Of a stretch of DNA of 64,000 nt, positions 13,318 to 34,003 are shown piece by piece (within the stretch, counting starts at the first letter, position 1; every line of letters begins with the position of its first letter). The position numbers and the translations under genes were made by a program. The stretch is from Candidatus Bathyarchaeota archaeon (GTDB lineage: Archaea > Thermoproteota > Bathyarchaeia > Bathyarchaeales > Bathycorpusculaceae). The stretch covers positions 62,001 through 126,000 of the forward strand of contig JAOULW010000004.1 of assembly GCA_029881805.1 (NCBI GenBank), given 5' to 3'. Below the pieces are notes generated by a model. The model ran no database searches, was not told where the DNA came from, and saw nothing but the letters and a program-made list of their open reading frames with translations.

Positions 13318-13391
13318 GGCCGGGGCCGGGATTTGAACCCGGGCGCTAGGCTCCACAGGCCTATAGGCTACCAGGCTACCTCACCCCGGCC
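13318..13391 (-). tRNA. tRNA-His (GUG)
   Basis: The cloverleaf closes fully. Acceptor stem GCCGGGG/CCCCGGC with the encoded extra G at position -1 (13391) and discriminator C73, both specific to tRNA-His. D arm has GG in the loop; anticodon stem TAGGC/GCCTA encloses loop CTGTGGA with anticodon GTG; T stem CCGGG/CCCGG encloses TTCAAAT. No CCA is encoded and no intron is present. The 5' end of the gene is the integration site of the element to the right. A TATA-like stretch at about 13411-13424, inside the element, lies 21-34 bases upstream of +1. Confidence 0.95.
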
Positions 13392-13393
13392 AC
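13377..13393 (+). repeat. Left attachment-site repeat (attL core)
   Basis: TACCTCACCCCGGCCAC, 17 bases, identical to 33987-34003. It covers the first 14 bases of tRNA-His, the G-1 and two bases upstream. The intact tRNA is at this end. Confidence 0.85.
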
Positions 13394-13432: not shown

Positions 13433-14851
13433 TCATTTACGTTTCCTCAGAAATATTAAGCCTTCTTTTTGACATATATACTCGAATCCGACTTCAAGCA
13501 ATGCTTTAACCTCTTCAGGCTTCTCAGCTACTTTAACTGTGAATTCATCGCTTCCAGATTCAAATAGTGTGCGTTCAATGTTGATGTATATTTCTGTGTT
13601 TCTCAGCTCTTTATGGCCCAGGAATTGCTTAACATAGTAAGGGTCTTTTGTTTGATGATAAAGCATTGTAGCCTTCCAATGTCTGAAAGTATGAAAGTTT
13701 ATCCTTAACAGTCTTGAATTTTGAAGTTTTGCAGCTAAACGCTTCCTTGCCTTTGAGAATGTTGTTTTCATTGAGTTTATCGGGCCGTCTCCAAACACTT
13801 TTGGGCTGTCTCTCGGTAAAGCGTTCAACATTGCTGTTAATTTTTGGCTTACCTTCCACATTCTCGGGTTTGAACCTTTCTCTGGATTGTTTAAGGTTAT
13901 GATGTTCTTTTCAAAGTCTATGTTAATCCATTCAAGCCTTTTAGCTTCACCACGTCTCATAGCTGTTTCTTTTAGTAGCTGAAGGAAAGTAGCAAGTTTT
14001 TTGCCTGTCCCTGATATTAAAGCGTCTAACTCTGCTTCAGATGGTATGAAAGGAAACTTTTGGGTTACATTGCATTTCGGTTTATCCCATTGTAAGCCGT
14101 TTAACTTAGCGAATAGGTTGTAAGCGTTTATCACGTTGCGTTTTCTGTTTTCACTCCATTGTTTCTGCTGTGCTATGACTTCTTTAACTGATTCCGGATT
14201 AAGTAGTTCTGATCCTCTTTCGGATAGGACTTTTAAAGCGGTTCTGTTAAGTCGAATCGTAGCTTCTTTATAGCCTTGCTTCTGCATATGGAAGCAGTAT
14301 TCAACGATTTTGCCTTTGATGTCTGCTTTAAGCTGCTCTGTGCCGCCCACACTCGGCCTTTCATTTTGGGTTGCGCTTATGGCCAAGTTTTTCGCCTCTT
14401 TGTCTAAGACGCATACTCGGCGTTTACTATTATAGGAAGGAAAAGCATTTAAGCCTTTTCCTACAGTAGTAACTCTATGCGAAGCTACATTTTCACCCCC
14501 AGAGAGAGGCGAGTCGTCAAGGCTTTCTTGAAAAGCGAAATCCCGATTAGCGATATGTCTATCCAGCAAATCCGATCCAGAGTCAAAAGTTTTGGCAAGC
14601 TTGCCAGTGACGTTGAGCTTTATGTTAGGCTGAGAGAAGCGGCATCCACAGTTTCGACATAACCATCTCTGAACAGAATCGCCATTATTTAAGCAGCGTA
14701 AGCCGTCTTTGTAAAGGCTCTTTGAACCACACTCAGGACAGCTCCTAGCGTGTATGTGTGTTGTTGAATGTGAGTGAGAGAGTGATATGTGTGCGTTGGG
14801 AGTGAGTGTGTTTGTTTCGTTCTCTTCTCTTCTACCTTCTAGGCTCACCAA
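13433..14851 (-). CDS. Tyrosine recombinase (integrase) with N-terminal zinc finger
   Basis: Catalyses site-specific integration/excision, most likely at the flanking tRNA-His repeats. The 472-residue protein has a zinc ribbon (CPECGS ... CRNCGCRF, about 38-71), a linker, a SAM-like core-binding domain (about 165-275) and a catalytic domain with Arg in TAMRRGEAKRLEW, the HxxR box HTFRHWKATM, the second His in FLGHKEL and the nucleophile Tyr in NTEIYINIE. All five key residues are present, so it should be active. It starts with GTG at 14851 in a GT-rich repeat region; the first 30 residues are low-complexity and a later start is possible. Confidence 0.9.
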   Translation of the reverse strand: MVSLEGRREENETNTLTPNAHISLSHSHSTTHIHARSCPECGSKSLYKDGLRCLNNGDSVQRWLCRNCGCRFSQPNIKLNVTGKLAKTFDSGSDLLDRHIANRDFAFQESLDDSPLSGGENVASHRVTTVGKGLNAFPSYNSKRRVCVLDKEAKNLAISATQNERPSVGGTEQLKADIKGKIVEYCFHMQKQGYKEATIRLNRTALKVLSERGSELLNPESVKEVIAQQKQWSENRKRNVINAYNLFAKLNGLQWDKPKCNVTQKFPFIPSEAELDALISGTGKKLATFLQLLKETAMRRGEAKRLEWINIDFEKNIITLNNPEKGSNPRMWKVSQKLTAMLNALPRDSPKVFGDGPINSMKTTFSKARKRLAAKLQNSRLLRINFHTFRHWKATMLYHQTKDPYYVKQFLGHKELRNTEIYINIERTLFESGSDEFTVKVAEKPEEVKALLEVGFEYICQKEGLIFLRKRK

Positions 14852-15443: not shown

Positions 15444-15451
15444 GAAAGAAT

Positions 15452-15946: not shown

Positions 15947-16143
15947 ACATAAATTTGAATAGTGAATGGTTGCGTTTGGTTTTGCGTTTCATGGAAAAGA
16001 CTTGACAACTTTTAACTCAAAAAACTTCGTATATTTAGAATGGTTCTTTAACCAAGTTTATGAAGGGAATTTAACGCTTTTCCGAAAATAACCTACTCGA
16101 AAATCGAAAACTTTGGCTGTTGTTTGCTCATGGATTATTTCTC

Positions 16144-17020: not shown

Positions 17021-17022
17021 GC

Positions 17023-17578: not shown

Positions 17579-18328
17579 CTATACCTTTCTGTTGCTTATT
17601 CGTTCTGTCATACTCGGCATTCCTTCAACGTAGTGAACAGCCGTCTCATATCTGGACCAATCAAACCAATCTTTAAGCTCGTGTGGTGTAAAGCCTTGCT
17701 CCGCTAATTCAGTAGCGAGGCTGTGCCTGAACCAGTGCGGATAAGCGTTATGATCTAGGGCCTTCAGTATTTTGTAAGCGTGAACCCGGCTCATTACGCC
17801 TTCTCGCTTGAACTCGTAGCGGTATTCCTTCTTGACTTCATTCGTCTGCTTGTCCTTCACCTTGACTATTTGAGTGTGGGGATAGCTGCGCCCAGGGAAC
17901 AGAGGCATTTCCATTTCGGCGAAGTCTTTAACGTAGTCTATTATCGGTATGGCAAAGGTTCGCTGGGACTTGACGCTTACGCGCTTAACCTTCTCTATTT
18001 GCTTGGCTAGTTCCGTTCTGCTTTTCTTCTTGAGGACCCTGAACCTCACGTAAAGGTATCCCTGCTTAGTGTACAAGTCTCGGCGTTTCAAATCCAACAC
18101 TTCAGAAATGCGTTTGCCGAAAAGGTAGAGTATGCACACTAAAGCCTTAACCATGCCGTAATGAACCGTTATCTCCTCACTATGCTCACGTCCTTCTTTG
18201 TCCTTGCCCTTGTAAAGGACAGGCCTCTTAGAGACTGCTAAAGCGTCAACAAACTCGAGCATACGCCTAACGTCCTGGCTTCTCAAAATATCCTCATGCT
18301 TAGTCTTTACAAACGGCAACTTTTTCAA
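17579..18328 (-). CDS. Second tyrosine recombinase, XerD-like
   Basis: A 249-residue recombinase unrelated in detail to the 472-residue one. It has the catalytic Arg in LFGKRISEVLDL, the HxxR box HWFRHSLATELAEQG, and the C-terminal WSRYETAVHYVEGM with the nucleophile Tyr (HYVE). The second catalytic His position reads LKDWFDWS, i.e. Trp replaces His, as in some active Xer homologues. The N-terminal core-binding domain is very short. It may resolve multimers or be a second integration enzyme. An AT-rich promoter (TACATATGTATATATA) lies upstream at about 18338-18355. Confidence 0.85.
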   Translation of the reverse strand: MKKLPFVKTKHEDILRSQDVRRMLEFVDALAVSKRPVLYKGKDKEGREHSEEITVHYGMVKALVCILYLFGKRISEVLDLKRRDLYTKQGYLYVRFRVLKKKSRTELAKQIEKVKRVSVKSQRTFAIPIIDYVKDFAEMEMPLFPGRSYPHTQIVKVKDKQTNEVKKEYRYEFKREGVMSRVHAYKILKALDHNAYPHWFRHSLATELAEQGFTPHELKDWFDWSRYETAVHYVEGMPSMTERISNRKV

Positions 18329-18875
18329 CGCCTATTCTTTACATATGTATATATACGGCATTTCAACGAAGATTCCGCCCCTTTTAAGTTTTTTGTTAAC
18401 GGGTTCTGTTAACTCTTAGGGTCTTAGACCAGTATATGGATAAACCTTATACGTTGCAACAACAGAGTTTAGGTAGGATATTTGCCCGCAGAACAGACAG
18501 CGTCATTAGCCAAATCTTTTGGTGCGGTAATGACCTTGCCAAAATCAAAGTCATTTCCACTATTCCAACTTCAGCATTGATTAAGCTTTAACTTTGTTTT
18601 CCTCATAAACAGTGTAATTTCACCTTACACTCAGCGCGTCTTCTCTAGGGTAAAGACAATCTGCCTGATTTTATTATTCTATGAAGCAAACCAGGTTTTT
18701 TTTGGCAAAATGATTTACAAAAGCAATAGGAATTTGTACAATAATTTAAATTGATTTGTGTCTATTCCAAACTTGCCTGGCATTTTACTGCGTTTCGCTC
18801 GGGGGTGAGCACCATAAAATTATTCATTTATTATGACGCAATTCTTATTATCTTACGAGTTTTAATCTTACCAGC
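18329..18875. other. Long intergenic region before the PAPS-reductase gene
   Basis: 547 bases. GTTAAC occurs at 18395-18400 and 18408-18413, separated by 7 bases, giving an inverted-repeat operator-like site near the second recombinase promoter. A 32-codon frame from a TTG at 18481, preceded by GGTAGG and a TATA-like TTATAC, could be a mini-gene or decayed remnant. The last 60 bases before 18876 are AT-rich promoter-like sequence. I see no convincing gene or RNA. Confidence 0.4.
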
Positions 18876-20450
18876 ATGGTATCTGAGAAGGCGCCTCGGC
18901 TTGTTCAAATTAGTTGGTGTCCAAACTGCAATGTTCCTGTTTTGAATGAAGGCCCTTGTAAGAACTGCTCGTCTGAAACTAGAAGAATTCCAGTAAATAG
19001 TTCAAGATTGAAACCTGTCTTCTCTGAAGAAAAGAGATTCTACAATCAAATTATTGATAAATCTCTGAGCACTTCTGACGACTTACTTCCTTCAGATGAA
19101 TGTTTCATCTCTTGTGGATCAGTTGTGGTGGATGGACAAAAAGCGTTTCGAATATCATTCACTGAAGGTGAATGGAAGGCAAAGGCATTCGCCAAATACG
19201 TGGTTGGTGACTTAGTAGGTTCAAACCTAGAGGAGGTTCTTAGAGCGAATGAGCATTTGCTTAAAGAAAAAGAAGCTGAAGCTGTAAGTTTTCTGGAGAA
19301 TACATTCGATCAATATGATCTTCCAGCAGTCGTATCGATGAGCGGGGGCAAAGATAGCGTAGTCGCTCTCTCGTTGGCTCTAAAAGTTGACAACAAGATC
19401 CCTGTTGTTTACATGAACACGACTTTGGATTTTCCGGAGACGGTTGATTATATTCATAGATTGTCAAGGGAATGGAAACTCGATCTTAACGAGATTCTTC
19501 CTGAAAAGAATTTTTTTGATTTAGCTAAGGAACTAGGGCCTCCAAGTTCAATGATGCCTTGGTGCTGTCAAACCCAAAAATTCGCCCCCTTCAACAAATA
19601 CTTGAACGCTAATTACCCTAAAGGTATTCTCTCAATTGAAGGATTGAGAAGATTCGAATCCGGGAAGAGAATGAACTATAAAAGGATTTCGCAAAATCGA
19701 GCGATTCCGAGGAAGAAATCTGTTTGTCCAATTCTGAATTGGACATCGCTCGATGTGTGGTTATATATTCTATGGAAAAAGATACCCTTTAACCCTGTTT
19801 ATGAATTTGGATATGACAGGATTGGTTGTTGGGCGTGTCCTCACAAAGGTATGCCATCATTTAGAATGATGGAGCACACTCATCCAAGACTTCTTGGTAA
19901 TTGGAATGAGTTTCTTCTGAGTTATGCTTCTAGCAATGGAAAAGACAAGGAATGGGTTCTGAATGGAAAATGGCGACTCAGACATGAACCATATGAGAAA
20001 GTATTGCTTCATTCGAAGAAACTCTGCGGAGCCGATAATTCTCTACTTTATGAGATAAAGGGTGATTTGAACTTACGCAGAAGCAAGGAATTTATGAAGG
20101 TCTTCGGAGAATCCAGAGGAAATAACAACATTCGTATAATACGAGGACACGATATTCAAATCTCAATTATAGGTAATAGTCTAAGAGTGACTTACACAAA
20201 CAAATTGATGGCAAGGTTATTTGAAAAACAATTAATGAAAGCAACTAACTGTGTCGCATGTGGAGCGTGTGTCGGAGCTTGCGAAGCCTTGAAAATCGAA
20301 GACAAGATCTTAACCATTAATGAAAGAGAATGCACTCACTGCTTAAGATGTACAAGTTCCAAGTACTTGAGAATGAGTTGTGTTGCTCTCAACTACCGGA
20401 AAAAGCGTTTTATCTGGAAAGAAGGGGCAGATCTAGCATCGAACGACTAA
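18876..20450 (+). CDS. PAPS-reductase-family protein with zinc ribbon and ferredoxin domain
   Basis: A 524-residue protein in three parts: N-terminal zinc ribbon (CPNC ... CKNC, about 14-29); an adenine-nucleotide alpha-hydrolase (PP-loop) core with SMSGGKDSVVAL (about 152-163), CCQTQK and CWACPHKGMPS; and a C-terminal [4Fe-4S] ferredoxin module with CVACGACVGACEA and CTHCLRC. The PP-loop family includes PAPS reductase, DndC (DNA phosphorothioation) and BrxP of BREX type 4. Related stand-alone proteins are common in methanogens, so the link to defence rests on context: it ends 6 bases from the convergent HerA gene of the PglZ operon. Confidence 0.85.
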   Translation: MVSEKAPRLVQISWCPNCNVPVLNEGPCKNCSSETRRIPVNSSRLKPVFSEEKRFYNQIIDKSLSTSDDLLPSDECFISCGSVVVDGQKAFRISFTEGEWKAKAFAKYVVGDLVGSNLEEVLRANEHLLKEKEAEAVSFLENTFDQYDLPAVVSMSGGKDSVVALSLALKVDNKIPVVYMNTTLDFPETVDYIHRLSREWKLDLNEILPEKNFFDLAKELGPPSSMMPWCCQTQKFAPFNKYLNANYPKGILSIEGLRRFESGKRMNYKRISQNRAIPRKKSVCPILNWTSLDVWLYILWKKIPFNPVYEFGYDRIGCWACPHKGMPSFRMMEHTHPRLLGNWNEFLLSYASSNGKDKEWVLNGKWRLRHEPYEKVLLHSKKLCGADNSLLYEIKGDLNLRRSKEFMKVFGESRGNNNIRIIRGHDIQISIIGNSLRVTYTNKLMARLFEKQLMKATNCVACGACVGACEALKIEDKILTINERECTHCLRCTSSKYLRMSCVALNYRKKRFIWKEGADLASND

Positions 20451-20456
20451 CCCCTA

Positions 20457-21785
20457 TTATTCTTCCTTCCGCATTTTTCGTAAAACATCCATCACCGATG
20501 TACCACTCATGGCTATCTTCTTGAGAATACTCGACTCAGCCCCTGCATGCCAACTCATTCGGGGTCTTATCGCAATTTGGGATATTGATTCTCTTTTGTC
20601 GTCGAAAAGCAAAGCAGCACCCTTAAGATCTCTGGGCAATTCGTTTAGGCTGTCTTTTACATCAGACTTTAGGTAAGTATGATGTATCTGATTTAGACCA
20701 TCAATATCTGGTTTTGCTGTCACTCTATGGGAAACAAGGATATCGGATTGAGTGATAGCCTCTGAAGAAAGTTTTCCTGGGTTTTGAGTAGCTAAAACAA
20801 TGCTGATGCCAGGATATCTGCCCTCTTTTATTGCGACTTCAAGTGGATAACTTGCAGCTGTCGAATGTGCAGATGGCAGAAATTCATGCGCTTCATCGAT
20901 AAGAATCCAAACCTTGGAGGCGATGTTCGATTCTTCGCTTGTACTTCCACTTATTTCTTTGAACTCTTCTGCTTTCCTTCTTTCTAATCTTATGTCCAGT
21001 ATCTTCTTGGTCAGCAAGCCCGCGACTAGGGCTCGAATGCTCCATTGCTTTGTTCCATGTTTTAACTCAGAAATATCTATGACTGAAATTTGCCCAGGCT
21101 TTAGGAAATCTTCTGCTTTAAATCCTTCTACACTAAAGATTCCCCAATTTTCAGCTGCCCGCAATTTATTTTCAATCGCCCTCATTGTGTTTTCAGCATT
21201 ATAAGGATCAGAATTAACTTCTGTAATGATATCAAAAATATCCCATTTTGAGGTTCGTTCGGTTAATTTGCTAACAGCTTTAGTTATTGCTATTCCCATT
21301 GGCTGATTCTCATCAATTTCGAAGGTCAGACACCAATCTTCAGGGGTAATATCAGACGGATGGAAAGCGAAAGTTTCAACTTCAAACTTGTGCTGCTCCT
21401 TAAGCCCTTTGGGAACAAACACTTTGACGTCAAATGCCTTTGGTTCCATGCCCCACTTTTCAAGCAATTTTTGTTGCTCTGTTCTTCGCGCTGGAAATTT
21501 TAGAGACCAGAAGATTCCCATCGTATCAATTACTATTGTTGCAATTTCCTCGCGAACCTCAGGTGGAGATTCAGCAATTCCCTCCACAATATTTCCTAAA
21601 GTCCATGACTTACCCGTTCCCCTCTTGCCACAGATTAGTATTACATGCGCTTTGTCTACATCCAAGTATATCGAATCTTGACCTTCAGTAAGTAATTTTC
21701 CCAAGAAAATTGATGCTAATTCTCCTACTTCCTCACATTCTCTTCTGTCTCTTCCAACTACCCATGGGATTGTCATTTTCACCAC
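20457..21785 (-). CDS. HerA-like hexameric DNA translocase ATPase (DUF87)
   Basis: A 442-residue ATPase of the HerA/FtsK superfamily. Walker A is ICGKRGTGKSWTLGNI (about 51-66), Walker B VWILIDEAHEFLPSAHS (about 290), followed by the YPGISIVLATQNPGKLSSEA sensor segment and an arginine-rich C-terminal VSHRVTAKPDIDGL. HerA proteins translocate along duplex DNA, often with nucleases such as NurA or Sir2. Here it is the last gene of the PglZ operon, overlapping the giant ATPase gene by 7 bases. Cytosolic; no nuclease domain of its own. Confidence 0.88.
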   Translation of the reverse strand: MVKMTIPWVVGRDRRECEEVGELASIFLGKLLTEGQDSIYLDVDKAHVILICGKRGTGKSWTLGNIVEGIAESPPEVREEIATIVIDTMGIFWSLKFPARRTEQQKLLEKWGMEPKAFDVKVFVPKGLKEQHKFEVETFAFHPSDITPEDWCLTFEIDENQPMGIAITKAVSKLTERTSKWDIFDIITEVNSDPYNAENTMRAIENKLRAAENWGIFSVEGFKAEDFLKPGQISVIDISELKHGTKQWSIRALVAGLLTKKILDIRLERRKAEEFKEISGSTSEESNIASKVWILIDEAHEFLPSAHSTAASYPLEVAIKEGRYPGISIVLATQNPGKLSSEAITQSDILVSHRVTAKPDIDGLNQIHHTYLKSDVKDSLNELPRDLKGAALLFDDKRESISQIAIRPRMSWHAGAESSILKKIAMSGTSVMDVLRKMRKEE

Positions 21786-24700
21786 AACAAACCAAATTTT
21801 TCAACTTCTTTGAGGAATTTTAAAACCTCCTCAGGTTTAAGCTTACGGCCCATTTTTTCACTTGATATTAGAGCTAAGACCGTTTCAAAAATTTCTTTTC
21901 TTTCATGTGCTTCTTTAATTTCTTTCAAAATCGTACTATAAGGCTCTTGTAATCCTTTCGGGATGCTTGCAATGATACTTTTTACATTTTCTTCGTTAAA
22001 TCTAGTGATGTGTTGCATAAAGGCTGTTATATCTTTGATTTGTGTTCCTGGGACTTTTATTTCTAATTGTTGCCATACTCCGTCAATATAACTTTCTGCG
22101 AATAACTCATATTTTTTTGAAAACTGTTCTTCTTTTTCCTTCCAGAAATCTTCCTTAAATCCCACGTTATATACATCACAGAATTTCTTAATGCCAGCAA
22201 TGCTCGTCTTATATTCTACAAATTTGGTTTTTACAAGGTGTTCATGAAGTGTCCTTTTAATTTCACTTTTCGCATCCATGTTCACCGTATGAAGAACAAG
22301 ACACCCATACGATTCATTAATGGTTAGACTTCCAAGAAGAGTGTCTGATTTTTTCTTTATTTCTCTCTTGTCAAGTATGCCAGCATCTCTTCTTGTCATA
22401 ATTTCTCGATACTCATGGTAGATCTTTCTCGCTCCTGTAAGAAATTTCTGATATTCTTCCGTCTTTTTCTTACACACATCTATTTTATTCGTCTCTGAGA
22501 AAATCTCGTCGAGCTTTTCGATTTCCTCTTTGATCATATCAAGTAATTCGAGGCAAACATTGGTCACAGCATCATTGTACTGAATGCCAGCTCTTTTGGC
22601 ATAGTCAACAATACCTTCGCCTCCTTCAACGTATCCTCTAGCTATGTTAAGTGCCTTTGTGACTTTTTCAAGATTCTTTATAGGCTTTAAAAGTTTAATA
22701 TAATCTTCAAAGTTCAAAGACGTTAAGTTTGAGAGTTTTTCTGTCGTGGAAGAAATATTAGGAACCACTGACATTTGTCCCTTAACTACTTCTATCCATT
22801 TAGAAACTCTCTTGGCCTCATCGCTCAGAACATCTTCCATCTTAGACCAAATGTTCATTTCCCATTGTTTCTTTATTTTCACTCTTTCTTCTTTAGTGCA
22901 TCCTTCCGACTCAAACCATGCATCAATAACCTTTTCAAGTCTTTCTTTTATTTTATCTGGCAATGGTAAGAGAGTCTCTTTTTCCATAGTTTGCGTCTGT
23001 TCGTTCCATTCTTCACCATAAGGATTCTTCAGCCATTCATTAAGTGAAGGGTACGCGCAAAGCGCTTCTTTTATCATTCCTAGAGTTTTCATAATTGCGG
23101 TAGATAAGGCATCACACCGTGCATGAGCAGTCAATTTTTGCTTAGTTAAATTGCTCTCTTTCTCTTCCAACATAATTTGCTTAGCTTCATTCACCAAAGC
23201 CTTCTCCATTCTTCGTTCAATTATTTGAGCTATTTTCTGCAAATCCTTTAGCTCACTGCTTTCTAACCTTAACTCGAAACCCTTGTCTGTTAGAAATGCA
23301 ATGGTCTTATCTATTTTTTCAATATCTTTAAGGAAACTTTTAGGGTCGACTATTTCTTTAAGTAGCTTGTAAGTAAATCTATTATCTTCCATCCTTCTCG
23401 CGAGTACAAGAGAGTCTGGGAACATCTTAAAAATTAAAAAAAGCGCAAGATCCACAGTTTCTACTAAGCTTCTGGTTTTCTTAGCCGCGAACTTTTGAAC
23501 ATTGAAACTTAGTAACGTTTCTTCGAGTATTTCCGCTTTGAATGGCTCGCAATTTTCCAAATATGATTGAAAAATATCATTTGCATCTTTCGTTTCATCT
23601 CCCACCATACCAAAGAGTTCTTTAAACTGTTTAGGAACCATTTTCCCGCTCATGGAGACATCGGTTTTTAGATATATCTCGTCGATTTGTTTTCCATGGT
23701 ATCCAAAGAAACCGGTGGTTATTAATCCCGCTGCAATTTTCCTATTTTCATCATCACACTTAATAGCTCCAATTTTCGCTACCTGATCGAGTAAATTTAG
23801 TAAGTCAGTATTATCAACCCATTTTTTCTTCTCGAATATCTGGGGCCAGGATTTTTCATCCCTAATCATTCCAATTGGTAAATCAATCTCCCATACTCGA
23901 TTAAGTACAGACTTTAACAAAGGATCGACGAGCATAGGATTAACTATGATATTTTTCAATGAGTTGAGCGAGAGATCAAGATGTTTGGCTTTAATGTCAT
24001 CAAATTCCTTTCCAAAAAAGCTTGGCATTTTGTCTAGTGCAAGGATGTAATCTATTATTTTTTCTCCTTCGAATCTACTTTCAGCTGGAAACCTTTCTTC
24101 TCCATGTACTGGATAAAGAAAGAGTAAATCCGAGAACTTAATTTTGTCCTCTTCCCATATTATATCATAACCTTCCCTCGCTACTGTATTTTCACTTCCC
24201 AATACCTCTCCATGAATGGCAAAGATTCTTTTCCACTGCATAGGATCAATTTTAGCTCTGGTTACTTCAGACTCTGGTGCTTTTAAACCAAGAAAATCTG
24301 GTAGAGGAGGTCCATAAATGCATAGAATAAGCCCAAACTGTAATTTCTTATTTTTTTGCAGCACCCTTTTAAGCTGAAGAGCATCTGCCTTCAACATGTC
24401 TTCGGAGGGCTTGAAATGTCTATAGTCCCTAAACAACACGACACCCATTATTTTTCTTTCAATAGCACCTCCGGTCATTGGATCAAAAGAAGATGAGACC
24501 GTCCACATATTGTCTTCAACGTATTTCTTCGCTTCCCATCCCCACACTTCAGTTATAATGTAAGGTGCTAGTCTTTTGTTTTCCATTTCCAGCTTTACGG
24601 TAGGACGTTCCCCTCCTACGCTACGAATTACTTCTTTAATTCTATCTATAACCTCTGGCCGAGGAGCAGTTAGTCGAACTTTTTCACCGTAGATTTGAAG

Positions 24701-26251
24701 CGTGTCACCTAAGCTTCTCATAACACTGTCAATTGTTCTATCTGGAAATTTCTCTTCTTCCAATTGCTTTCGGAACGCTACAAGGGCAACCTCAGTGCCA
24801 GTTCCAGCCAGTTTATAAAAGATTTCCAAAAATCTTCTTTCCAAATGGGTTCTTTCAAATTCTAATGTTGCGAAATTTTCTCTGTTTACGATGTATACAT
24901 TTTCTCTAATTTCTTCGATGGCGCCAATTCTTCTCATAGTTTCTAGGAATATATTAAATTCATACGCTTCCGCCTCAAGTAAGAATTTTTTCCGCAAAGC
25001 GTCATAATCAAATTCTTCAAATTGAACAAGAATAGCTTTTACCCATCTTTCAAGTTGCGGTCTTTTTCGTTTGGGCAGTGCCCTTTCCAACATCTGGACG
25101 CAATAGTTATAAAAATCAATTTTTATTGACTTGTCAAAGTAGTTTCTTATCACATACTCCAAAGTACAAATCCAATCTTTCTCGCCTGTCTCAGAATTTT
25201 TTATATAATCCTCATAACAAAAGTTTAGCACAGCCATACAATTCCTGAAGTTGTGATAAGAATAATGTGCTACAAATCGTGTTGCATCCTGGTCTTTAAA
25301 CGGGCTATATTTTTCTTGATTCAATCTCTTAAGATGTTCCATTATCGCTTCGTTAAGATCTTCAAATTCTAAGTTGGGAATTGACTGTGGTCTAAAGGCC
25401 TGACGAAACATCTCGGTAAAATTTACCCAAATTTTGCTCGTGCATGCCACGATCACTTTTAACCCCTGGGGCGTAAATTCTTGCACCAAATGTTCCCGAA
25501 GCTCTGTTTGCGTAATACTCTTAAGAAATATTCCATATCGTTCCATTTCGATTATCTTTTCCATTTCGTCGACATAAAGAACAAAAATGTCAATGTTTAG
25601 CTCCTTTCTAAGTCTGTTTAGAAAAACGTTGAGGAACGAATAAAATTCTTCTTGTGTAAATACTTCCTCTCTTAGAATTCGGCTAGAAGCACTTTCCAAT
25701 ACTCGCCTTCGTTCTTCTAGCTTTTCATCCTTACCAGTTTTCCTAAGTTTTTCATCGATCTCCTTTATCCACTCATCGTGAGTCGCAAGTTCTTTAAACC
25801 TTGGTTCAATTATTTTCCTTTTTGTTTCTTTTATCAAATTAACGACTTTTCTAGCAAACTCCTTTTGTGTACTATTAGCATTCTCGCTTGTTGAGACGCT
25901 TTCATAGATTTTTTCTAATTGAAGATATATTTCATTATGGAAGATTTGTACGTAGTTTACTTCCATTTCTTTTGCTGGTTTCTCACCCAATTTGCGAAAA
26001 ACTTCTTGTAGGCTAACATAACATACGACTTTATCTGTATCAAGTTTGAACTTTTCCGCTAAGTACTTCATTAAACGTGTTTTTCCTGAACCTACATCAC
26101 CGACTATAGAGTGCGATGGCCAAAAACCTCTGGTAATGCATTGATTTTCAAAAAAATCCCTAAATTTTACCATGGACCCGGACTTGGCAGTCCAAAAGGT
26201 TACGACGGGTTCCGGCTGAGGTGTAAATGGATTATCTAATTTTATCGTCAT
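21779..26251 (-). CDS. Giant P-loop ATPase, BrxC/PglY-like
   Basis: A 1490-residue protein. The N-terminus is an ORC/Cdc6-like AAA+ module with Walker A IVGDVGSGKTRLMKYLAEK (about 49-67) and Walker B IFVLYVDEMEKIIEME (about 222-237), then a sensor-like VIVACTSK. The central part (about 450-1000) has winged-helix-like and mixed segments including DIIWEEDKIKFSDLLFLYPV; the last 500 residues are long charged helices. Size, N-terminal ATPase and linkage to a PglZ gene match BrxC/PglY of BREX systems (DUF6079-type), which assemble on DNA. Identification is by architecture; overall similarity must be tested. Overlaps neighbours by 4 and 7 bases. Confidence 0.7.
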   Translation of the reverse strand: MTIKLDNPFTPQPEPVVTFWTAKSGSMVKFRDFFENQCITRGFWPSHSIVGDVGSGKTRLMKYLAEKFKLDTDKVVCYVSLQEVFRKLGEKPAKEMEVNYVQIFHNEIYLQLEKIYESVSTSENANSTQKEFARKVVNLIKETKRKIIEPRFKELATHDEWIKEIDEKLRKTGKDEKLEERRRVLESASSRILREEVFTQEEFYSFLNVFLNRLRKELNIDIFVLYVDEMEKIIEMERYGIFLKSITQTELREHLVQEFTPQGLKVIVACTSKIWVNFTEMFRQAFRPQSIPNLEFEDLNEAIMEHLKRLNQEKYSPFKDQDATRFVAHYSYHNFRNCMAVLNFCYEDYIKNSETGEKDWICTLEYVIRNYFDKSIKIDFYNYCVQMLERALPKRKRPQLERWVKAILVQFEEFDYDALRKKFLLEAEAYEFNIFLETMRRIGAIEEIRENVYIVNRENFATLEFERTHLERRFLEIFYKLAGTGTEVALVAFRKQLEEEKFPDRTIDSVMRSLGDTLQIYGEKVRLTAPRPEVIDRIKEVIRSVGGERPTVKLEMENKRLAPYIITEVWGWEAKKYVEDNMWTVSSSFDPMTGGAIERKIMGVVLFRDYRHFKPSEDMLKADALQLKRVLQKNKKLQFGLILCIYGPPLPDFLGLKAPESEVTRAKIDPMQWKRIFAIHGEVLGSENTVAREGYDIIWEEDKIKFSDLLFLYPVHGEERFPAESRFEGEKIIDYILALDKMPSFFGKEFDDIKAKHLDLSLNSLKNIIVNPMLVDPLLKSVLNRVWEIDLPIGMIRDEKSWPQIFEKKKWVDNTDLLNLLDQVAKIGAIKCDDENRKIAAGLITTGFFGYHGKQIDEIYLKTDVSMSGKMVPKQFKELFGMVGDETKDANDIFQSYLENCEPFKAEILEETLLSFNVQKFAAKKTRSLVETVDLALFLIFKMFPDSLVLARRMEDNRFTYKLLKEIVDPKSFLKDIEKIDKTIAFLTDKGFELRLESSELKDLQKIAQIIERRMEKALVNEAKQIMLEEKESNLTKQKLTAHARCDALSTAIMKTLGMIKEALCAYPSLNEWLKNPYGEEWNEQTQTMEKETLLPLPDKIKERLEKVIDAWFESEGCTKEERVKIKKQWEMNIWSKMEDVLSDEAKRVSKWIEVVKGQMSVVPNISSTTEKLSNLTSLNFEDYIKLLKPIKNLEKVTKALNIARGYVEGGEGIVDYAKRAGIQYNDAVTNVCLELLDMIKEEIEKLDEIFSETNKIDVCKKKTEEYQKFLTGARKIYHEYREIMTRRDAGILDKREIKKKSDTLLGSLTINESYGCLVLHTVNMDAKSEIKRTLHEHLVKTKFVEYKTSIAGIKKFCDVYNVGFKEDFWKEKEEQFSKKYELFAESYIDGVWQQLEIKVPGTQIKDITAFMQHITRFNEENVKSIIASIPKGLQEPYSTILKEIKEAHERKEIFETVLALISSEKMGRKLKPEEVLKFLKEVEKFGLLW

Positions 26252-26952
26252 AATGTCTCCATTTCATCTAACATTTTTAATATATCGTTCCAACTGAATG
26301 TCCTTCCTTTTGAATATTCACCACTTATTTTATCAAAAAACTCAAGGATCGTTCGTTCTTGAAGCTCAAACTTTCCAGCCACTATTTCGCAAAACGTTTC
26401 TTTGTCTTTCTTAAAATCAATCAGCTCATTTAAATAAACTCTTTTGAAGAAAAAGGATGTGATTACTCTCTCCGCTTTCTTCCATGCGTCATCATCACAT
26501 ACCGCAATAATGTCTGCAATTTCATTTTCTATTGGCCATCTTGCCTCCCGCCAATTCCGACAGATTTCCAGGTGATCAAGCACAATAAACACTCTTTTTC
26601 CTTTTTCTTTACAGATGGAATTTATTTTACTCATTTTGTTTAATATGGAATTAATTTCATCAATTTCACTAAAATTAATGTTAGGTAATAAATCCTTAAC
26701 CTGCTTGATGTACTCTTCCCAATTCACATTGACTCGCGGTTCGGGGCAAATAACGGGAGCAAATAGGTCTAAACGCACAAATTCCAACTCTTCATTAGTC
26801 ACATTTTTAACCAAAAACTTGATTACTTCAGTTTTACCAAAACTGTCTGGTCCTATGAAGGCTATTCCCCATTTGCTTGAGGATTTCTCTACATCCTTGA
26901 TTTTATTCTTTAAAGCTTCAAAAGCTTCTCTCTGTGGTGAAGTTAATTTCAT
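26248..26952 (-). CDS. Small AAA-type ATPase of the PglZ operon
   Basis: A 234-residue P-loop protein with Walker A FIGPDSFGKTEVIKFL (about 32-47) and Walker B RVFIVLDHLEICRNW (about 118-132), followed by sensor-like AERVITSFFF. The fold looks like the ORC/STAND branch. It overlaps the 1490-residue ATPase start and the preceding gene by 4 bases each, so stoichiometric co-translation is likely. Classical BREX operons do not contain a separate small ATPase of this type, which is one reason to regard the system as a variant. Confidence 0.65.
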   Translation of the reverse strand: MKLTSPQREAFEALKNKIKDVEKSSSKWGIAFIGPDSFGKTEVIKFLVKNVTNEELEFVRLDLFAPVICPEPRVNVNWEEYIKQVKDLLPNINFSEIDEINSILNKMSKINSICKEKGKRVFIVLDHLEICRNWREARWPIENEIADIIAVCDDDAWKKAERVITSFFFKRVYLNELIDFKKDKETFCEIVAGKFELQERTILEFFDKISGEYSKGRTFSWNDILKMLDEMETL

Positions 26953-27902
26953 AGCAGCTGTTCACCTTTTAAAGTAATTGAATAAATCAGCGTATTGTCA
27001 GGTAATCTAAGCCCTATTGCATCTTCCTTTGTTTTTTGACTGTACACTCTAATTTTGCCCATGTTACGTAATATCAGTGTTCGCATAATATAGTCAAACA
27101 TCTTTTCATTTATTCGAAATTTTTTACAAATGGAAGATTTTAGCTCATCAATTGGAACCATCAACAGAGTAACATCCCGTCCAATAATTTTATTATACTC
27201 TTCAAAAACCGCTCCCTTAAACTCTGGATAAGAAATCTTAACTTCCTTTTTGGAGATTCCCTGTACCTTTCCAGCCTCTTCGCTTATCCATTTAGCCTTT
27301 TTCGCAATAGCCAACAAAGCGTTCAAATGTGACAAAGAATACCTCCATTTTTCAACTGGTTTCCTTCTTTGTTCCATTTCTTTCTTTTTCTCTAGAAAAT
27401 AGTCGGGACGATTCGCTTTCGCACAAGCTAACATGTCTTCACTCAATCTTTCCTTTAAGACTTCTTTAGCGATGGGGACTGAATATTCATTTATGATAGT
27501 GATCAACAATTTGAATGGAATGTGAAACTCGTAAGCCCTTTTCGCAACGTACTCAAAAATCTTCTGGTCACTTGTCACATCGACATTTAGAATATCCCCA
27601 TCTACTCCAAACTCGGTGCCAGCACCCGCCTTTATCACATCAGCTGTTTGTTTCCCTTTTTCTATCCAAATTATCCCACTTTTTCTTAAGAGCCTAATAG
27701 GCTCGTTAAAATGCTTGGAACTAACGTCTTTGGTAAAGCCATATAGTTTGCTAAATTTCTCTCTAACATCGTCCAGCTGCACTACATACCTGCCATCTTT
27801 TTTCTTCACCGATTTTTGTAATGATTCAATTAATACTGCAATTGTGCCTGGCGCAACAAGTTCATATGACCAGGTAAATTTCATGTGTTCTTCTCCGCTC
27901 AT
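26949..27902 (-). CDS. Uncharacterised protein of the PglZ operon
   Basis: A 317-residue soluble protein. The N-terminal 90 residues look winged-helix-like (VAPGTIAVLIESLQKS, VREKFSKLYGF, FNEPIRLLRKSGIIWIEKG), and a second such unit appears near the C-terminus (LKSSICKKFRINEKMFDYIMRTLILRNMGKIRVYSQ), suggesting a DNA-binding adaptor with two wHTH modules around a helical middle. No family recognised. Sits 15 bases after pglZ and overlaps the small ATPase by 4. The first residues may be dropped in favour of the ATG at residue 7 (MKFTWSYEL). Confidence 0.6.
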   Translation of the reverse strand: MSGEEHMKFTWSYELVAPGTIAVLIESLQKSVKKKDGRYVVQLDDVREKFSKLYGFTKDVSSKHFNEPIRLLRKSGIIWIEKGKQTADVIKAGAGTEFGVDGDILNVDVTSDQKIFEYVAKRAYEFHIPFKLLITIINEYSVPIAKEVLKERLSEDMLACAKANRPDYFLEKKKEMEQRRKPVEKWRYSLSHLNALLAIAKKAKWISEEAGKVQGISKKEVKISYPEFKGAVFEEYNKIIGRDVTLLMVPIDELKSSICKKFRINEKMFDYIMRTLILRNMGKIRVYSQKTKEDAIGLRLPDNTLIYSITLKGEQLL

Positions 27903-27917: not shown

Positions 27918-30900
27918 CTATTTTTCTAATCGCACTAAGGGTATAAATAGTTCGCACATCGATATCCCGCCATGAATCCCTCCATAGTATTTTTTCCTTT
28001 CTGGTCGGGCAAACATGCCAACAGTTGGAAAAACAATAAAGTCAGGCTTGATTGTCAAATTCCTTTTATTTTCTTCTATCTTTTTTTCCTCAAAAACTAT
28101 TTCATTAGCCTGTTGTGAAATCTCTAGAGCTTCTTTAATCTTCTCTTTTTTGTAGAGCCCACTTTTTAATAAAAAGATTGACATGAACTTTCTAGATGTG
28201 TGGCCCGGGATGCAAGAACCGATAAGCCGATCATCTTCAGCAAATAATTCACCTGTTCTATGCTTTGGTAAACATGCAAATCCTTCTACTGAGCCCAGTA
28301 TCTGATTTATTCCCTTAAATTCGCTTGTTCTTCCCAAGGCAAGTCCGTGATCTGCTGTGATGATGACAACTGTTCCCTTTTTTAGCTTATTGAAACCATT
28401 AGAGATGCGATTAACAACACTTTTCCAAAGGTCTAGGTATACCTCCCAATAATCCTTTACAACATCATTGAAAAATGCAGGCGGGTAGGGTGTATTGAGA
28501 GCTTGCAGAAAAGCGTCCATTAAATTAACTTGGGAAACAACGAGGTCATGAGTTCTGTCTGAAAGAGCTTCGTCTATTGCACTCGCATAAGCGCCAACTT
28601 GCTTAAAGGCGGCGTTGCCTTTAAATAGATACGAAAGAAAAGTCGTTTCTGAATTTGCGGATATAAGAAGACCTCTTTTTGAGGTTTGCCCAAGTGCTTT
28701 ATCCCACGACTCGGTCGGTCTCTGAAGGTTGCATTCTTCTAATCTTGGCCTCCAAATTACTGATTTACGGTTCTGTTCGTTTAAATGAAGGATGCTGAAT
28801 ATCTTTGCTTTATCCTCACCCTTATTAGGCACGAAAGAGTCGTCGGTTGCTCTTATAAGAAATGAATCATCATTGAGGAGCTTCTCTCCAAAAAATAAAG
28901 CAATATGGTTAACTCCGGTTACTGTTGGGATGCATGAAGACAAAATTTGAGCATTCCCCTTTTGGAAAAGGTTGACGAAGTACTCTGAGAATTCTGCAAG
29001 TTGCTTCGATTCTTTGCGAGCTATCTCTAAACATGCAAAAAAGGAATGAATGAAGCCAAGTCCATCAAAGATTAAAAGTATCACTTTTTTGTTTTCCTCT
29101 TGCAGTTTCTTAACTACATCAAAAACAGAGGTTATAGGCTGAAAATAGTCAAAATAATGATTCCTGCTTTTCTTTAACTGCAGACCGATGTATTTATCAA
29201 ATACGCATTGATAATCAAAAAATCGCGATGGTTCACGTTTAAAGAGCTTCAATGTGTTAACGGAGCAAAATGTCTCAAATGCTTTCCTAAATAGGCTGGA
29301 ATCAAATTGATCTTGTTCAATCTCTTCTTCAATTCTTCTTTTAAAGAAATTTAGTGGATTTCCTGTTTCCCATTGATTGATGAGTTTGTCAATTTCAATG
29401 GCTAACGAAGGGCGAATAACTATTTCATCTATCACTGCTTTCTTAATAAAATTAATAACATCTATGATTTGGTCACAGTGTTTATTTCGGAGTAGTTGAA
29501 GGAAAGCAATTTTCTCTTCAACACTAAAGATCGGATAGCCAAACAGTCCAATAACATATGGTAATACCTCCAATATTTCGTTGGAATCCATGTTTTCTAT
29601 TTGTTTCAAGACAGGGAGAAGATCATCCCATATCTGAGAAGCTGCGATTTTCTTTGTTGCGTAACGTGCTGTTATGGCTTTTAACTTGGTGCGCGCGCTG
29701 TCATGATATAACAAAAGTAGCTGTTCGAGTGCATCAACTTCATTCTCATCTTTAGCCAGTTCATTAATGTTCTTGAAGAACTCCTTGACTAAGTTCAAAT
29801 TTATTCCTAATTCGAGGGCTAAATCATATTCAAGAAAATCCTTGTAGCCGTACAAAAGCGAGTTAATTTTTTCCAACAGTACTTTGGCTTTCACAGAATT
29901 AAGTTTGGATGAATCAACTTTCGTTCTTTGGTAGGAAAACTCGAGCATCTTTTTGAGTTTCCAGACTACATAAAGCGATGATACATCCTCTTTACTGAAA
30001 CGCCACAGTCCATAACAGGTATTCATTCTAAAGGCATACTTTGAGACAAGTTTTTCTACATCGTCTCCCAATGGAAGTTTCTTGATTCTACTTTTGACGT
30101 CTTCCAAAAAATCTTGGATGACGTCTCCAGTTTTGTCAAGTGCACTAAGAAATATTAGAGCTGAGACCTGCTTAAGAGGAACCGATTTCTCGAGCGGATA
30201 AATATAGTCCAGTAAATAAGCATCAGGCTTATTTTGGATGTCAGTCGTGATGCCGAAACCAGGATAGACTACTGCGCCCATCTGGTATGCGTCATGCAGA
30301 AAAATGGCGAGTTCTAAGGGGCACTTAAATTCGCTTACGTAGGAAGTGATATCAATGTAAATATAGTTTTCTCGAAACTGGTGTCTCATGTACAAGGAAA
30401 GAGGATAGTAGATACCATTTAATCTAACCAGATCGAAAAACTCTTTTTTCATCGTCAATGAGAATTTTGACAAGCAACCTTTACATTTTTCAATTTTTTC
30501 TTCAGTGCAATACATTACTTCAGAGCAAAATTCCATATAATTTTTGAGCAAAATTAGCGAAATTACTAGATTAACTAAAGTGCTTTCCTTCATTTCCATG
30601 ATGTGCCTTATACAATATGGTAGTTCGTTGACCTCCGAAAATGCGTTTAAAACATCGTCATGACTTAGTTGAGAATCATGACTAACTGTTGTTAGATCAA
30701 GGCGTTTTGGCAATTTCTTTATGATTCTTTGAAAATCTTCTATTTCTTGCCTCTTTGCATATTCATCAGATATAAAGAGGAAAAAACAGGCATAAGGAGA
30801 AACGATTTCTCTTCTAATTTCTTCATCGGCTGGATTGAAAAATGCTGTTATTTTGTTGCGTTGAAGCCAAGATGTCAATCCCTTTACAGTCTCAATCTCT

Positions 30901-31061
30901 GTGATGATTACTCTTTTCTTTTGCCATTCTCCTTTAGCTGCTTTCTTGATCGCCCTATTGAGCGGAGATATTTTTCTCCAGAAATCGTGGACTTCAAATA
31001 TTTGCTTTGCTTGATTTAGAAGTTCTCTTCCTAAGTTCACTCCACATCGTTTCCGAATCAT
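27918..31061 (-). CDS. pglZ: PglZ-domain alkaline-phosphatase-superfamily protein
   Basis: A 1047-residue protein whose C-terminal third is a PglZ domain: metal-binding Asp in ILLIFDGLGFIHS (about 668-680), nucleophile-type Thr in CIPTVTGVNHIALFFGE, VVIITADHGLALGR, and the terminal YYGGIHGGISMCELFIPLV. These are the metal ligands of the alkaline-phosphatase fold. The first 650 residues are helical and unrecognised. PglZ is the hallmark of BREX/Pgl phage-defence systems and of Pbe phosphorothioation-linked systems. First gene of the tight five-gene operon; a TATA-like TTTATTATTA at about 31082-31093 gives a nearly leaderless start at ATG 31061. Confidence 0.88.
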   Translation of the reverse strand: MIRKRCGVNLGRELLNQAKQIFEVHDFWRKISPLNRAIKKAAKGEWQKKRVIITEIETVKGLTSWLQRNKITAFFNPADEEIRREIVSPYACFFLFISDEYAKRQEIEDFQRIIKKLPKRLDLTTVSHDSQLSHDDVLNAFSEVNELPYCIRHIMEMKESTLVNLVISLILLKNYMEFCSEVMYCTEEKIEKCKGCLSKFSLTMKKEFFDLVRLNGIYYPLSLYMRHQFRENYIYIDITSYVSEFKCPLELAIFLHDAYQMGAVVYPGFGITTDIQNKPDAYLLDYIYPLEKSVPLKQVSALIFLSALDKTGDVIQDFLEDVKSRIKKLPLGDDVEKLVSKYAFRMNTCYGLWRFSKEDVSSLYVVWKLKKMLEFSYQRTKVDSSKLNSVKAKVLLEKINSLLYGYKDFLEYDLALELGINLNLVKEFFKNINELAKDENEVDALEQLLLLYHDSARTKLKAITARYATKKIAASQIWDDLLPVLKQIENMDSNEILEVLPYVIGLFGYPIFSVEEKIAFLQLLRNKHCDQIIDVINFIKKAVIDEIVIRPSLAIEIDKLINQWETGNPLNFFKRRIEEEIEQDQFDSSLFRKAFETFCSVNTLKLFKREPSRFFDYQCVFDKYIGLQLKKSRNHYFDYFQPITSVFDVVKKLQEENKKVILLIFDGLGFIHSFFACLEIARKESKQLAEFSEYFVNLFQKGNAQILSSCIPTVTGVNHIALFFGEKLLNDDSFLIRATDDSFVPNKGEDKAKIFSILHLNEQNRKSVIWRPRLEECNLQRPTESWDKALGQTSKRGLLISANSETTFLSYLFKGNAAFKQVGAYASAIDEALSDRTHDLVVSQVNLMDAFLQALNTPYPPAFFNDVVKDYWEVYLDLWKSVVNRISNGFNKLKKGTVVIITADHGLALGRTSEFKGINQILGSVEGFACLPKHRTGELFAEDDRLIGSCIPGHTSRKFMSIFLLKSGLYKKEKIKEALEISQQANEIVFEEKKIEENKRNLTIKPDFIVFPTVGMFARPERKKYYGGIHGGISMCELFIPLVRLEK

Positions 31062-31134: not shown

Positions 31135-31908
31135 TTATCGAGTTTCAATTAATTCTTTGAATTTCTTCAATTGGTGCTGAATTTCTTCCTTCATCGTGGG
31201 ATGAATTTCTGTTTGTGTAAACATTGCTAGGAAAACTTTTCCGTAGTCTGTCGCAGGTTTTGATGGTACAAAAGTTGCTCGAAAGATTAGTTTACTTTTG
31301 GTTTTGGATATCTCTATAAAATCTATGTAGTCTACCCACGTGCCTTCTAACTCGACCTCCTGAAGTGAAGCGTCCATTCCAGCTGCTTGGACTTCAATCT
31401 TTGTTTTCTTTGTAGTGATATGGATTGGTTTGGTGAGTTCAATCTCTTCAAATGTTTCCACCCAAATGTCTCCTCTTTCCGGGTCAACTCTCTTTAGCCA
31501 GAAATGAGTTTCGTCAATTCTTCCAGCAGACCCATTAAGCAGAGTTTGAGATATCACGTCCATATCTCTCCAAAACTCCCAAACCTTCTCCACAGGTGCA
31601 TTAATAGAAATCGTTTCAGAACATTCACCTACGCTTTCATCCTTCTGTCCTTCTTCAAGGGTTGACAGCACGTCTTTTTTCCAATTCATCATCATTTCAT
31701 TGTATCGCTGAAACAATGAAACATCTTCTGAACTGATTCGTTTATTTTCTATGTCATCAGCTATGCAATTCAGAACATGTTCATTAGCCATAATTCGCCA
31801 AGTGTCGCTTTCAACCGAAGCTGTTCCAGTTTCAAGTTCTTTTCTAACTCTTCTTAACGCTTCAATGGTCTCAGAATGCGGTTTTTTCTTGCGGGTCCAA
31901 AAAGGCAT
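31135..31908 (-). CDS. SRPBCC (START-like) domain protein
   Basis: From the ATG at 31908, preceded by a good GGAGGT ribosome binding site, the product has 257 residues. The N-terminal 80 are charged helices (KKKPHSETIEALRRVRKEL). The rest is a START/polyketide-cyclase-like fold: ETISINAPVEKVWEFWRDMDVI, then beta strands and a C-terminal helix MKEEIQHQLKKFKELIE, the classic long closing helix. Such domains bind hydrophobic ligands. The upstream in-frame start at 31971 lacks a ribosome site. It lies 73 bases ahead of pglZ on the same strand, so may be part of the same module. Confidence 0.75.
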   Translation of the reverse strand: MPFWTRKKKPHSETIEALRRVRKELETGTASVESDTWRIMANEHVLNCIADDIENKRISSEDVSLFQRYNEMMMNWKKDVLSTLEEGQKDESVGECSETISINAPVEKVWEFWRDMDVISQTLLNGSAGRIDETHFWLKRVDPERGDIWVETFEEIELTKPIHITTKKTKIEVQAAGMDASLQEVELEGTWVDYIDFIEISKTKSKLIFRATFVPSKPATDYGKVFLAMFTQTEIHPTMKEEIQHQLKKFKELIETR

Positions 31909-31981
31909 TTTTATAACCTCCATCTGGTAAAACAAGTTAAAAAAACTCTCATTTTGCTTCTGCACGTGCACATATATCCGA

Positions 31982-33010
31982 TTACCCCACTACTATGATG
32001 TCTTTCAAGGCGATGATTTTAGGCCAGTTTTTTGGTGGTTCTTGTTTGTCGTTTTCCCAGCAAACTATGAAATCGCATTCTTGAGGTGGATGCTTATGTG
32101 TTTCAAATTCACTAGCGAACAGTTCCAGTTCGATTTTCTTCTCCTCTCCTCGATCATTTAGCACATTCACATCCGGGAACCCCTGCTGTATTCTCTTGAT
32201 ATAAGTAAAGCCTAGTTTTCTATGGTGCCTTGCAAAAAGATACAGCACCTCCTGTTCAGTCCTCGGCGCGTACAATAATCCCTCTCCAATTAAAGGTTCA
32301 AAAGATGCAGTAATTCCTCTAGTCAGTTGAGCAGCCCTAGGCGAAAGCTCCTCTCGAAATGTCGAGTAAAGAAACTTGGCAAAGTAGGCGTTATGCCAAT
32401 TTCGGGTCTCTTCAAGACTGTTCTTGAAATTTAGCAGCAAGTTGTTTAACAACTCATATTTCTTGCCAATTGTGGATTCATCATAGACCTCCCCATATCT
32501 ACTGTTGCTCTCGTTTTCCAGTGTAGTTCTTGTAATACCCAACATTTCACAGAATTTTTCAAGATCGCCTGTCCTAAAGGCATATATATCAATGTCAGGG
32601 TAAAAGCAGTTTATTATCTTCTTTGCAATGTGTTTGTCGCCACCCCACATCTTGATGTTTTCCCATGGAGCATCGACCTTCTGATGCAAGGGTTTAATAT
32701 CATCAACCGCGATTTTCAGAAGCCCTTTGAATTGGCTGATGTTGTTTGCAGCATTCTCCCATACACCAGCATGTCCAATATAGAGGTGCCCAAATCCCTT
32801 TAGCTTATGCTCGATCCAATCAAAGAAATATCCTGGATGCCCAGGATTATACAAGTCATCATGTGTAATGTTATTGATTAGTTGAGGGTTGCTTCGCCAA
32901 GGATATCTTTGATTGAATTTTCTTATGAGTTCCAATGCCTCATCAAGCTTCTTTTTCTGTTTGGAGTCTGGATCAAAAATTCGTGCTTTCTCAATTATCT
33001 CTTCAAACAT
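31982..33010 (-). CDS. Putative PD-(D/E)xK nuclease
   Basis: A 342-residue protein from the ATG at 33010. The N-terminal 230 residues are helical with conserved aromatic segments (YFFDWIEHKLKGFGHLYIGH, NIKMWGGDKHIAKKI). The C-terminal 110 residues look like a restriction-endonuclease fold: QGFPDVNVLNDRGEEKKIELEL with PD...ELEL as candidate metal ligands, then ECDFIVCWENDKQ. Such C-terminal domains occur in uncharacterised archaeal nucleases. It may be the effector of the neighbouring PglZ system; 74 bases separate it from the SRPBCC gene. Confidence 0.6.
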   Translation of the reverse strand: MFEEIIEKARIFDPDSKQKKKLDEALELIRKFNQRYPWRSNPQLINNITHDDLYNPGHPGYFFDWIEHKLKGFGHLYIGHAGVWENAANNISQFKGLLKIAVDDIKPLHQKVDAPWENIKMWGGDKHIAKKIINCFYPDIDIYAFRTGDLEKFCEMLGITRTTLENESNSRYGEVYDESTIGKKYELLNNLLLNFKNSLEETRNWHNAYFAKFLYSTFREELSPRAAQLTRGITASFEPLIGEGLLYAPRTEQEVLYLFARHHRKLGFTYIKRIQQGFPDVNVLNDRGEEKKIELELFASEFETHKHPPQECDFIVCWENDKQEPPKNWPKIIALKDIIVVG

Positions 33011-33192
33011 ACTCAAGCAAGTCAACCTTCAGAGGAGAAATTATCATGTTCTCAATAAGAGTTTTTCTTTTGCACAGACAGGCATCATCAATTGGAATCT
33101 CTCTAAGTCTGAATAACAGAGAAAAATGTATACTTATCAAGCACATAGAGACAAAAACCATTTGAGCCAAGTTAATACTAGGTGATATAGAG

Positions 33193-33876: not shown

Positions 33877-33986
33877 ACTTTTCTCTAAAGGATTCCGACT
33901 ATCTGGAACATCGCCTATGAACAGGGACCGGAAAAAAGAAGGGTTTGCGTGGGTTCAAGTGGAGACATCTCCATTTTGACCGAGGT

Positions 33987-34003
33987 TACCTCACCCCGGC
34001 CAC
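33987..34003 (+). repeat. Right attachment-site repeat (attR core)
   Basis: Identical 17-base copy of the 5' end of tRNA-His (TACCTCACCCCGGCCAC). No tRNA body follows. The sequence to its right (CTAATTTTTAG at about 34017-34027, TATA-like when read on the minus strand) is probably the ancestral tRNA-His promoter, now 20 kb from the gene. Confidence 0.85.

Follow-up and report, generated by a model that had tools for sequence, protein, structure and literature searches.

A PAPS-reductase-like/ferredoxin gene beside a BRC-like HerA–PglZ operon on an archaeal integrative element: a candidate DNA-marking module

In the genome of a Candidatus Bathyarchaeota archaeon, a gene for a PAPS-reductase-like/ferredoxin protein and a gene for a HerA ATPase converge until their stop ends are 6 bases apart, raising the question of whether the two belong to one defence system and what the first would do in it. 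We analysed the 64,000-nucleotide stretch of contig JAOULW010000004.1 that holds them (hereafter, the window; all positions are window positions unless a locus is named). A first-pass annotation had linked the protein to type 4 BREX or to DNA sulfur modification. The explanation we favour, with confidence just short of even, is that the PAPS gene is a sulfur-transfer DNA-marking module paired with an operon for capture and restriction that resembles BREX-Related Capture (BRC); the functional link between them is one that we infer.

An integrative element at tRNA-His

The genome carrying the window is about 2.2 Mb, and window positions 13317-34003 form a 20.6-kb integrative element at tRNA-His. 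The first-pass annotation had correctly described the adjacency of the PAPS and HerA genes and had missed the element common to both. The element is bounded by att-like repeats of 21 nt that match at 20 of 21 positions (one mismatch); among 1500 21-mers drawn at random from the window, not one had a partner with one mismatch or fewer. Its features are as follows.

13317-13390 (-): tRNA-His gene
13373..13393: att-like direct repeat, within the 5' end of the tRNA-His gene
13433..14851 (-): tyrosine integrase, 472 aa, adjoining tRNA-His (PF00589, 1.1e-16)
17579..18328 (-): second tyrosine recombinase, 249 aa (PF00589, 4.9e-14)
18876..20450 (+): PAPS-reductase-like/ferredoxin protein, 524 aa (PF01507 at residues 151-323, E 3.7e-42; tree; signatures; AF2 pLDDT 85.9)
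20457..21785 (-): HerA/FtsK-type ATPase, 442 aa (DUF87, 2.1e-14; homology to Haloplanus BRC HerA)
21779..26251 (-): P-loop ATPase, 1490 aa, in the BrxC position (Walker A GDVGSGKT, Walker B LYVDE; size, order)
26248..26952 (-): P-loop protein, 234 aa, in the STAND/BrxB position (GPDSFGKT and FIVLDH motifs; order)
26949..27902 (-): winged-helix-like protein, 317 aa, in the DUF4007/BrxA position (size, order)
27918..31061 (-): PglZ-like protein, 1047 aa, first operon gene (DGLG, ADHG, GIHGGISMCELFIPL; BREX_PglZ_2, 5e-4)
31135..31971 (-): SRPBCC-like protein, 278 aa, upstream of pglZ (PF10604, 0.016, below cut-off); possibly accessory to the operon
31982..33025 (-): 347-aa protein upstream of the operon (PADLOC PD-T4-1 match weak and local, 6.9e-5 over 35 residues); possibly an accessory defence gene
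33983..34003: second att-like repeat, distal end of the element

The repeats enclose both tyrosine recombinases, the PAPS gene and the HerA operon along with a few small genes, which makes the PAPS gene and the operon cargo of a single integrative element. A check for an empty site by way of the flanking dipeptidase found no relative with a close copy of that gene. As the PAPS gene (+) and HerA (-) converge, they do not form one transcript and would be transcribed separately.

The operon runs on the minus strand in the order PglZ, 317-aa protein, 234-aa P-loop protein, 1490-aa P-loop protein and, last, HerA, with start/stop overlaps joining every gene pair except the first (PglZ/317 aa). That this is a PglZ–HerA operon, as first annotated, held up: HerA was identified by DUF87 and a plasmid homologue, and PglZ by the motifs DGLG, ADHG and HGG.S..E..PL together with weak profile matches (NCBIfam 5e-4, PADLOC 0.027). 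For most of the operon proteins, no homologue could be detected. The 1490-aa BrxC-like ATPase had no significant homologue in related genomes or plasmid searches, and searches of 200-300 related genomes with the BrxC-like, PglZ and HerA proteins returned nothing or generic HerA alone. Plasmid searches with the BrxC-like and PglZ proteins found none, viral scans with the BrxC-like protein, HerA and the HerA pair gave no confirmed relative, and PDB sequence searches with the PglZ and BrxC-like proteins gave no meaningful matches. The DUF4007 profile did not match the 317-aa protein significantly (E 0.23), and a single-sequence AF2 model of this protein was unusable (pLDDT 40).

The PAPS protein and its relatives

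The 524-aa protein is composed of the following parts.

18918..18968 (+): zinc ribbon (CxxC..CxxC; C15/C18/C28/C31), read from the sequence and common to its nearest relative and Ssp-type relatives
19326..19844 (+): PP-loop domain (SGGKDS at 156-161, CC230/231, C318xxC321)
20007..20249 (+): alpha+beta domain, residues 378-458, between the PP-loop domain and the ferredoxin (secondary structure of the AF2 model)
20250..20381 (+): 2x[4Fe-4S] ferredoxin module, C459-C502 (eight cysteines aligned with relatives)

The AF2 model comprises N-terminal strands, the PP-loop domain, the alpha+beta domain and the ferredoxin, whose cysteines (459, 462, 465, 469 and 486, 489, 492, 502) are all present. The CC..CxxC motif is typical of [4Fe-4S] APS reductases, and in a fold search with the PP-loop domain the top matches included the APS reductase 7lhs (Z 20.3, rmsd 2.5, 186 aligned residues); the structural neighbours also included the tRNA thiolases TtuA/NcsA (Z 13-14). 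Solved Dnd/Ssp or other phosphorothioate (PT) structures were not among the matches listed, and omission from that list is not evidence of absence. The open reading frames, PF01507 and the cysteines thus bear out the first description of the protein, with its zinc ribbon and [4Fe-4S] module, ending 6 bases from HerA. Its C-terminus shows no catalytic cysteine of the ECGLH type found in true (P)APS reductases, so sulfate reduction is unlikely. We propose that the protein is a sulfur-transfer modification enzyme. It is the sole PAPS-reductase protein of the genome, the other PF01507 matches being GMP synthase and an AsnB-like protein.

To place the protein in its family, we scanned GTDB genomes for relatives (80 loci) and built a tree of 52 rows. 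The tree holds a housekeeping clade of PUA-type proteins (support 100/99) and an Ssp/BREX4 clade of 16 members (99/96), and the window protein falls outside both; AU tests rejected neither its grouping with the PUA type (p 0.20) nor that with Ssp/BREX4 (p 0.06). We then compared signature positions between 51 sequences with Ssp/BREX4 neighbours (the PT-neighbourhood group) and 57 long PUA-type sequences without them. At position 183, the PUA-type sequences have G (57/57) and most PT-neighbourhood sequences T (47/51); at position 257, the former have Q/K/N (57/57) and the latter I/V (51/51). The window protein is missing the PUA region and has T183 and the hydrophobic L257, a combination that, read from its sequence, is of the PT type. 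It also has P228, just ahead of the CC motif, where 57/57 PUA-type and 49/51 PT-neighbourhood sequences have R.

Profile scores were compared as well. The PADLOC match to BrxP (197 bits) was not accepted as a sign of membership: housekeeping PUA-type proteins reach 186-207 bits, so the match is not diagnostic. A Methanosphaera BrxP (785 aa) fits the same model end to end with 818 bits. The archaeal PUA-type proteins (PRK13795) share with the window protein the zinc ribbon, the PP-loop with CC/CxxC and the ferredoxin, but they have the PUA region and form a separate clade; the window protein stays under every PRK13795 cut-off in NCBIfam (best 310 of 456 bits).

The best relative found lies on a Thermoplasmatota MAG contig (L052; 36% identity over the aligned core, same architecture). 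There, positions 8443-19432 hold an integrase and the PAPS gene, followed by DrmA (1.9e-105), DrmB (3e-44), DrmC (9.3e-14) and DrmE (3.5e-17; PF24957, 6.4e-30), and no methylase was found in the PAPS-drmA-drmB-drmC-drmE run. By its gene content, this single locus looks like a DISARM system with the sulfur enzyme in the methylase's place. A literature search found no published link between DISARM and a PAPS reductase. The comparison loci found thus number one DISARM-PAPS locus and one complete BRC locus.

The main alternative to a functional pairing is that the gene is unlinked cargo, a sulfur-metabolism or RNA-thiolation gene that shares the element and ends beside HerA by chance. The convergent orientation would suit this, the family does hold a large archaeal housekeeping clade from which the AU test (p 0.20) does not exclude the window protein, and no second co-occurrence of PAPS gene and operon was found: operon homologues were absent from all 160 PAPS loci, and no further pairing with PglZ/HerA appeared in 256-300 related genomes. 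Since the operon has almost no counterpart in the data searched, the missing second pairing counts only weakly against a link. The absent PUA region, the PT-type residues at 183 and 257, the defence locus around the nearest relative and the lack of another PAPS-reductase protein in the genome argue against unlinked cargo, which we consider somewhat unlikely. Of the two outcomes that the first-pass annotation had set against a link, clustering with housekeeping homologues was not seen in the tree; the lack of a second genome with both the PAPS gene and this PglZ operon was.

A proposed mark on self DNA

We read the PAPS gene as a self-marking gene because it shares one element with a BRC-type HerA, carries PT-type signatures, has a DISARM-borne relative and encodes the only PAPS-reductase of the genome. 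The catalytic steps and the substrate, like the link itself, are ones that we infer. The 524-aa protein would be an ATP-pyrophosphatase sulfurtransferase of the BrxP/SspD kind and would most likely put a sulfur mark on host DNA, probably a backbone phosphorothioate. Its PP-loop domain would adenylate the DNA phosphate, a cluster on the CC230/231-C318/C321 motif present in the protein would carry the sulfur, and the C-terminal two-cluster ferredoxin would give electrons. The sulfur would come from a host cysteine desulfurase, for which the Aminotran_5 proteins encoded in the genome (best 2.7e-147) are candidates. The winged-helix-like and P-loop proteins of the operon would recognise DNA, HerA would capture and translocate it, and PglZ would act as a nuclease on unmarked DNA, with the mark shielding self DNA from HerA capture and PglZ cleavage.

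This explanation is weakened by the convergent genes, the missing second pairing, the single comparison locus found for each of DISARM-PAPS and complete BRC, the position outside the Ssp/BREX4 clade and P228. It is also weakened because Ssp and BREX4 need SspB/DUF4007 and SspC/BrxC, whose counterparts in the window are not detectably homologous. The mark itself might be another DNA thio-modification, such as a thio-base. Neither an SspB/SspC nor a DndD/DndE partner could be recognised at the locus, BRC relatives carry base-modifying TGT/QueF-like genes, and tRNA thiolases are among the structural neighbours, all of which would suit such a mark. We nevertheless hold it improbable, as the closest sequence relatives of known product make PT and the PP-loop tRNA thiolases are structurally further away than APS reductase (Z 13-14 versus 20). 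Very unlikely is an effector or sensor role, in which the ferredoxin-linked sulfurtransferase would act against or detect invader DNA, or a signal, instead of marking self: convergent placement would permit separate, inducible control and P228 is unusual, but the characterised homologues SspD, BrxP and DndC serve the modification step.

Tentatively, and with less confidence than the pairing itself, the locus may represent a further defence architecture based on PT. In it, an archaeal PAPS-reductase/ferredoxin enzyme that stands alone would mark DNA without recognisable Dnd/Ssp partners and join unrelated restriction modules (BRC-type HerA–PglZ in the window, DISARM in the Thermoplasmatota relative), with methyl, deazaguanine and sulfur chemistries as interchangeable cassettes. 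A sulfur enzyme of separate lineage, with HerA–PglZ in one archaeon and DISARM in another, would widen PT-based immunity, and exchangeable self-marking cassettes would become testable via sulfur in the native DNA of these archaea.

Comparison with known systems

Type 4 BREX, Dnd and Pbe do not describe the window locus, and no Ssp system was recognised in it. To date, PT synthesis has been attributed to three families of genes (dnd, ssp and brxPCZL) and is documented for brxPCZL and sspBCD (PMC11931770). Type 4 BREX (BrxP-BrxC-PglZ-BrxL) shares with the window a PAPS-reductase with alpha+beta domain and ferredoxin, a PglZ and a large P-loop ATPase; the alpha+beta domain resembles the extra domain reported for BrxP in position. 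Unlike the window, it has no HerA and does have BrxL, and in the tree the window PAPS protein falls outside the BrxP/Ssp clade (AU p 0.06). BrxP is usually fused to DUF4007, whereas the window protein ends after the ferredoxin. No BrxL was found in the neighbouring genes (PADLOC, Pfam, NCBIfam), a BrxL profile against the window proteins was not significant, and Ssp and BREX4 profiles (42-43 homologues each) gave nothing significant against the operon proteins, for which distant homology is possible. A locus in a genome of the window's family (L250:1-10689) encodes BrxP (775 aa), BrxC (1398), PglZ (700), BrxL and a cysteine desulfurase; judged by size, order and sequence it is apparently a genuine type 4 BREX, and it differs from the window locus. 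The proposed link to type 4 BREX is therefore not upheld.

Three further loci carry related genes. One in another genome of the family (L042:3734-19326), probably a provirus, has a 409-aa PAPS-reductase-like gene near ParB-like and head-tail-virus-like genes. Among viral contigs, one has two tandem BrxP-like genes (L134:2403-5753) and another a type 4 BREX-like gene set (L133).

SspABCD has an SspD-type PAPS protein without the PUA region and with T183 and a hydrophobic 257, as in the window, but its SspB/SspC/SspA neighbours were not recognised beside the window PAPS gene. In a PADLOC scan of ten genes at the locus, DndC matched at 7e-6 and the DndD/DndE models did not match, in agreement with the first-pass reading that neither was visible; the link to PT chemistry is reasonable, given the PT-type form and the context of the nearest relative, and the Dnd label is not. 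That annotation had also described Pbe as pairing Dnd genes with a PglZ protein. Pbe is defined by an HKD nuclease-helicase, a CxC ABC ATPase and a DndE cognate beside Dnd genes (PMC10853773), and published accounts name no PglZ component (PMC6459918, PMC10853773), which contradicts the description; Pbe was dropped as a comparator, and the scanned window genes contained no PbeABCD components. As for DISARM, the nearest PAPS relative heads a Drm locus, whereas the window itself has no Drm genes.

The closest likeness is to BRC, described in January 2026 (Rakesh & Krishnan 2026; PMC12839542), in which GNAT and TGT occur in a subset and are optional by definition and a PAPS-reductase/ferredoxin gene is not among the components listed. 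The window HerA is homologous to the HerA of a Haloplanus sp. HW8-1 plasmid (37.8% identity, 402 columns, E 4e-96), its one close homologue in a plasmid collection (E 9e-83; next match 2e-14). The Haloplanus locus (L257:9284-22124) encodes TGT (PF01702, 1.1e-10), a 282-aa protein, a small AAA protein, a BrxC-type ATPase (PF10923, 2.3e-6), a 380-aa PglZ-like protein, HerA, GNAT and a QueF-like protein (PF14489, 6.3e-17), with queC, queE and a QueD-like gene upstream. Read by its genes, it is a complete BRC system. It is likely a deazaguanine-marking one.

Like BRC, the window has small P-loop, large P-loop, winged-helix-like and PglZ-like genes in one operon with a HerA of the BRC kind; its PglZ, recognised by motifs and weak profile matches, has the HGG motif in common with the Haloplanus PglZ, their overall similarity being weak. 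It differs in that PglZ comes first and the non-HerA proteins are too diverged to show homology: against the BRC BrxC-type ATPase (DUF6079), active STAND NTPase and DUF4007-type winged helix, hhalign probabilities were below 1% and alignment Z was 3.2, 1.6 and -0.7, respectively, and PF19557 is absent from the genome. The operon fits the five BRC core positions, with HerA alone proven homologous and PglZ recognised from its motifs; the proteins in the BrxC, STAND and winged-helix positions are putative assignments drawn from size, order and Walker motifs. TGT, GNAT and QueF-like genes were not found in the window element, where HerA has the PAPS gene as its neighbour, so that the sulfur enzyme may have taken the slot of the Haloplanus genes. 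This difference in marking genes suggests that such defence systems swap their self-marking chemistry, and the window operon is better termed BRC-like than BREX.
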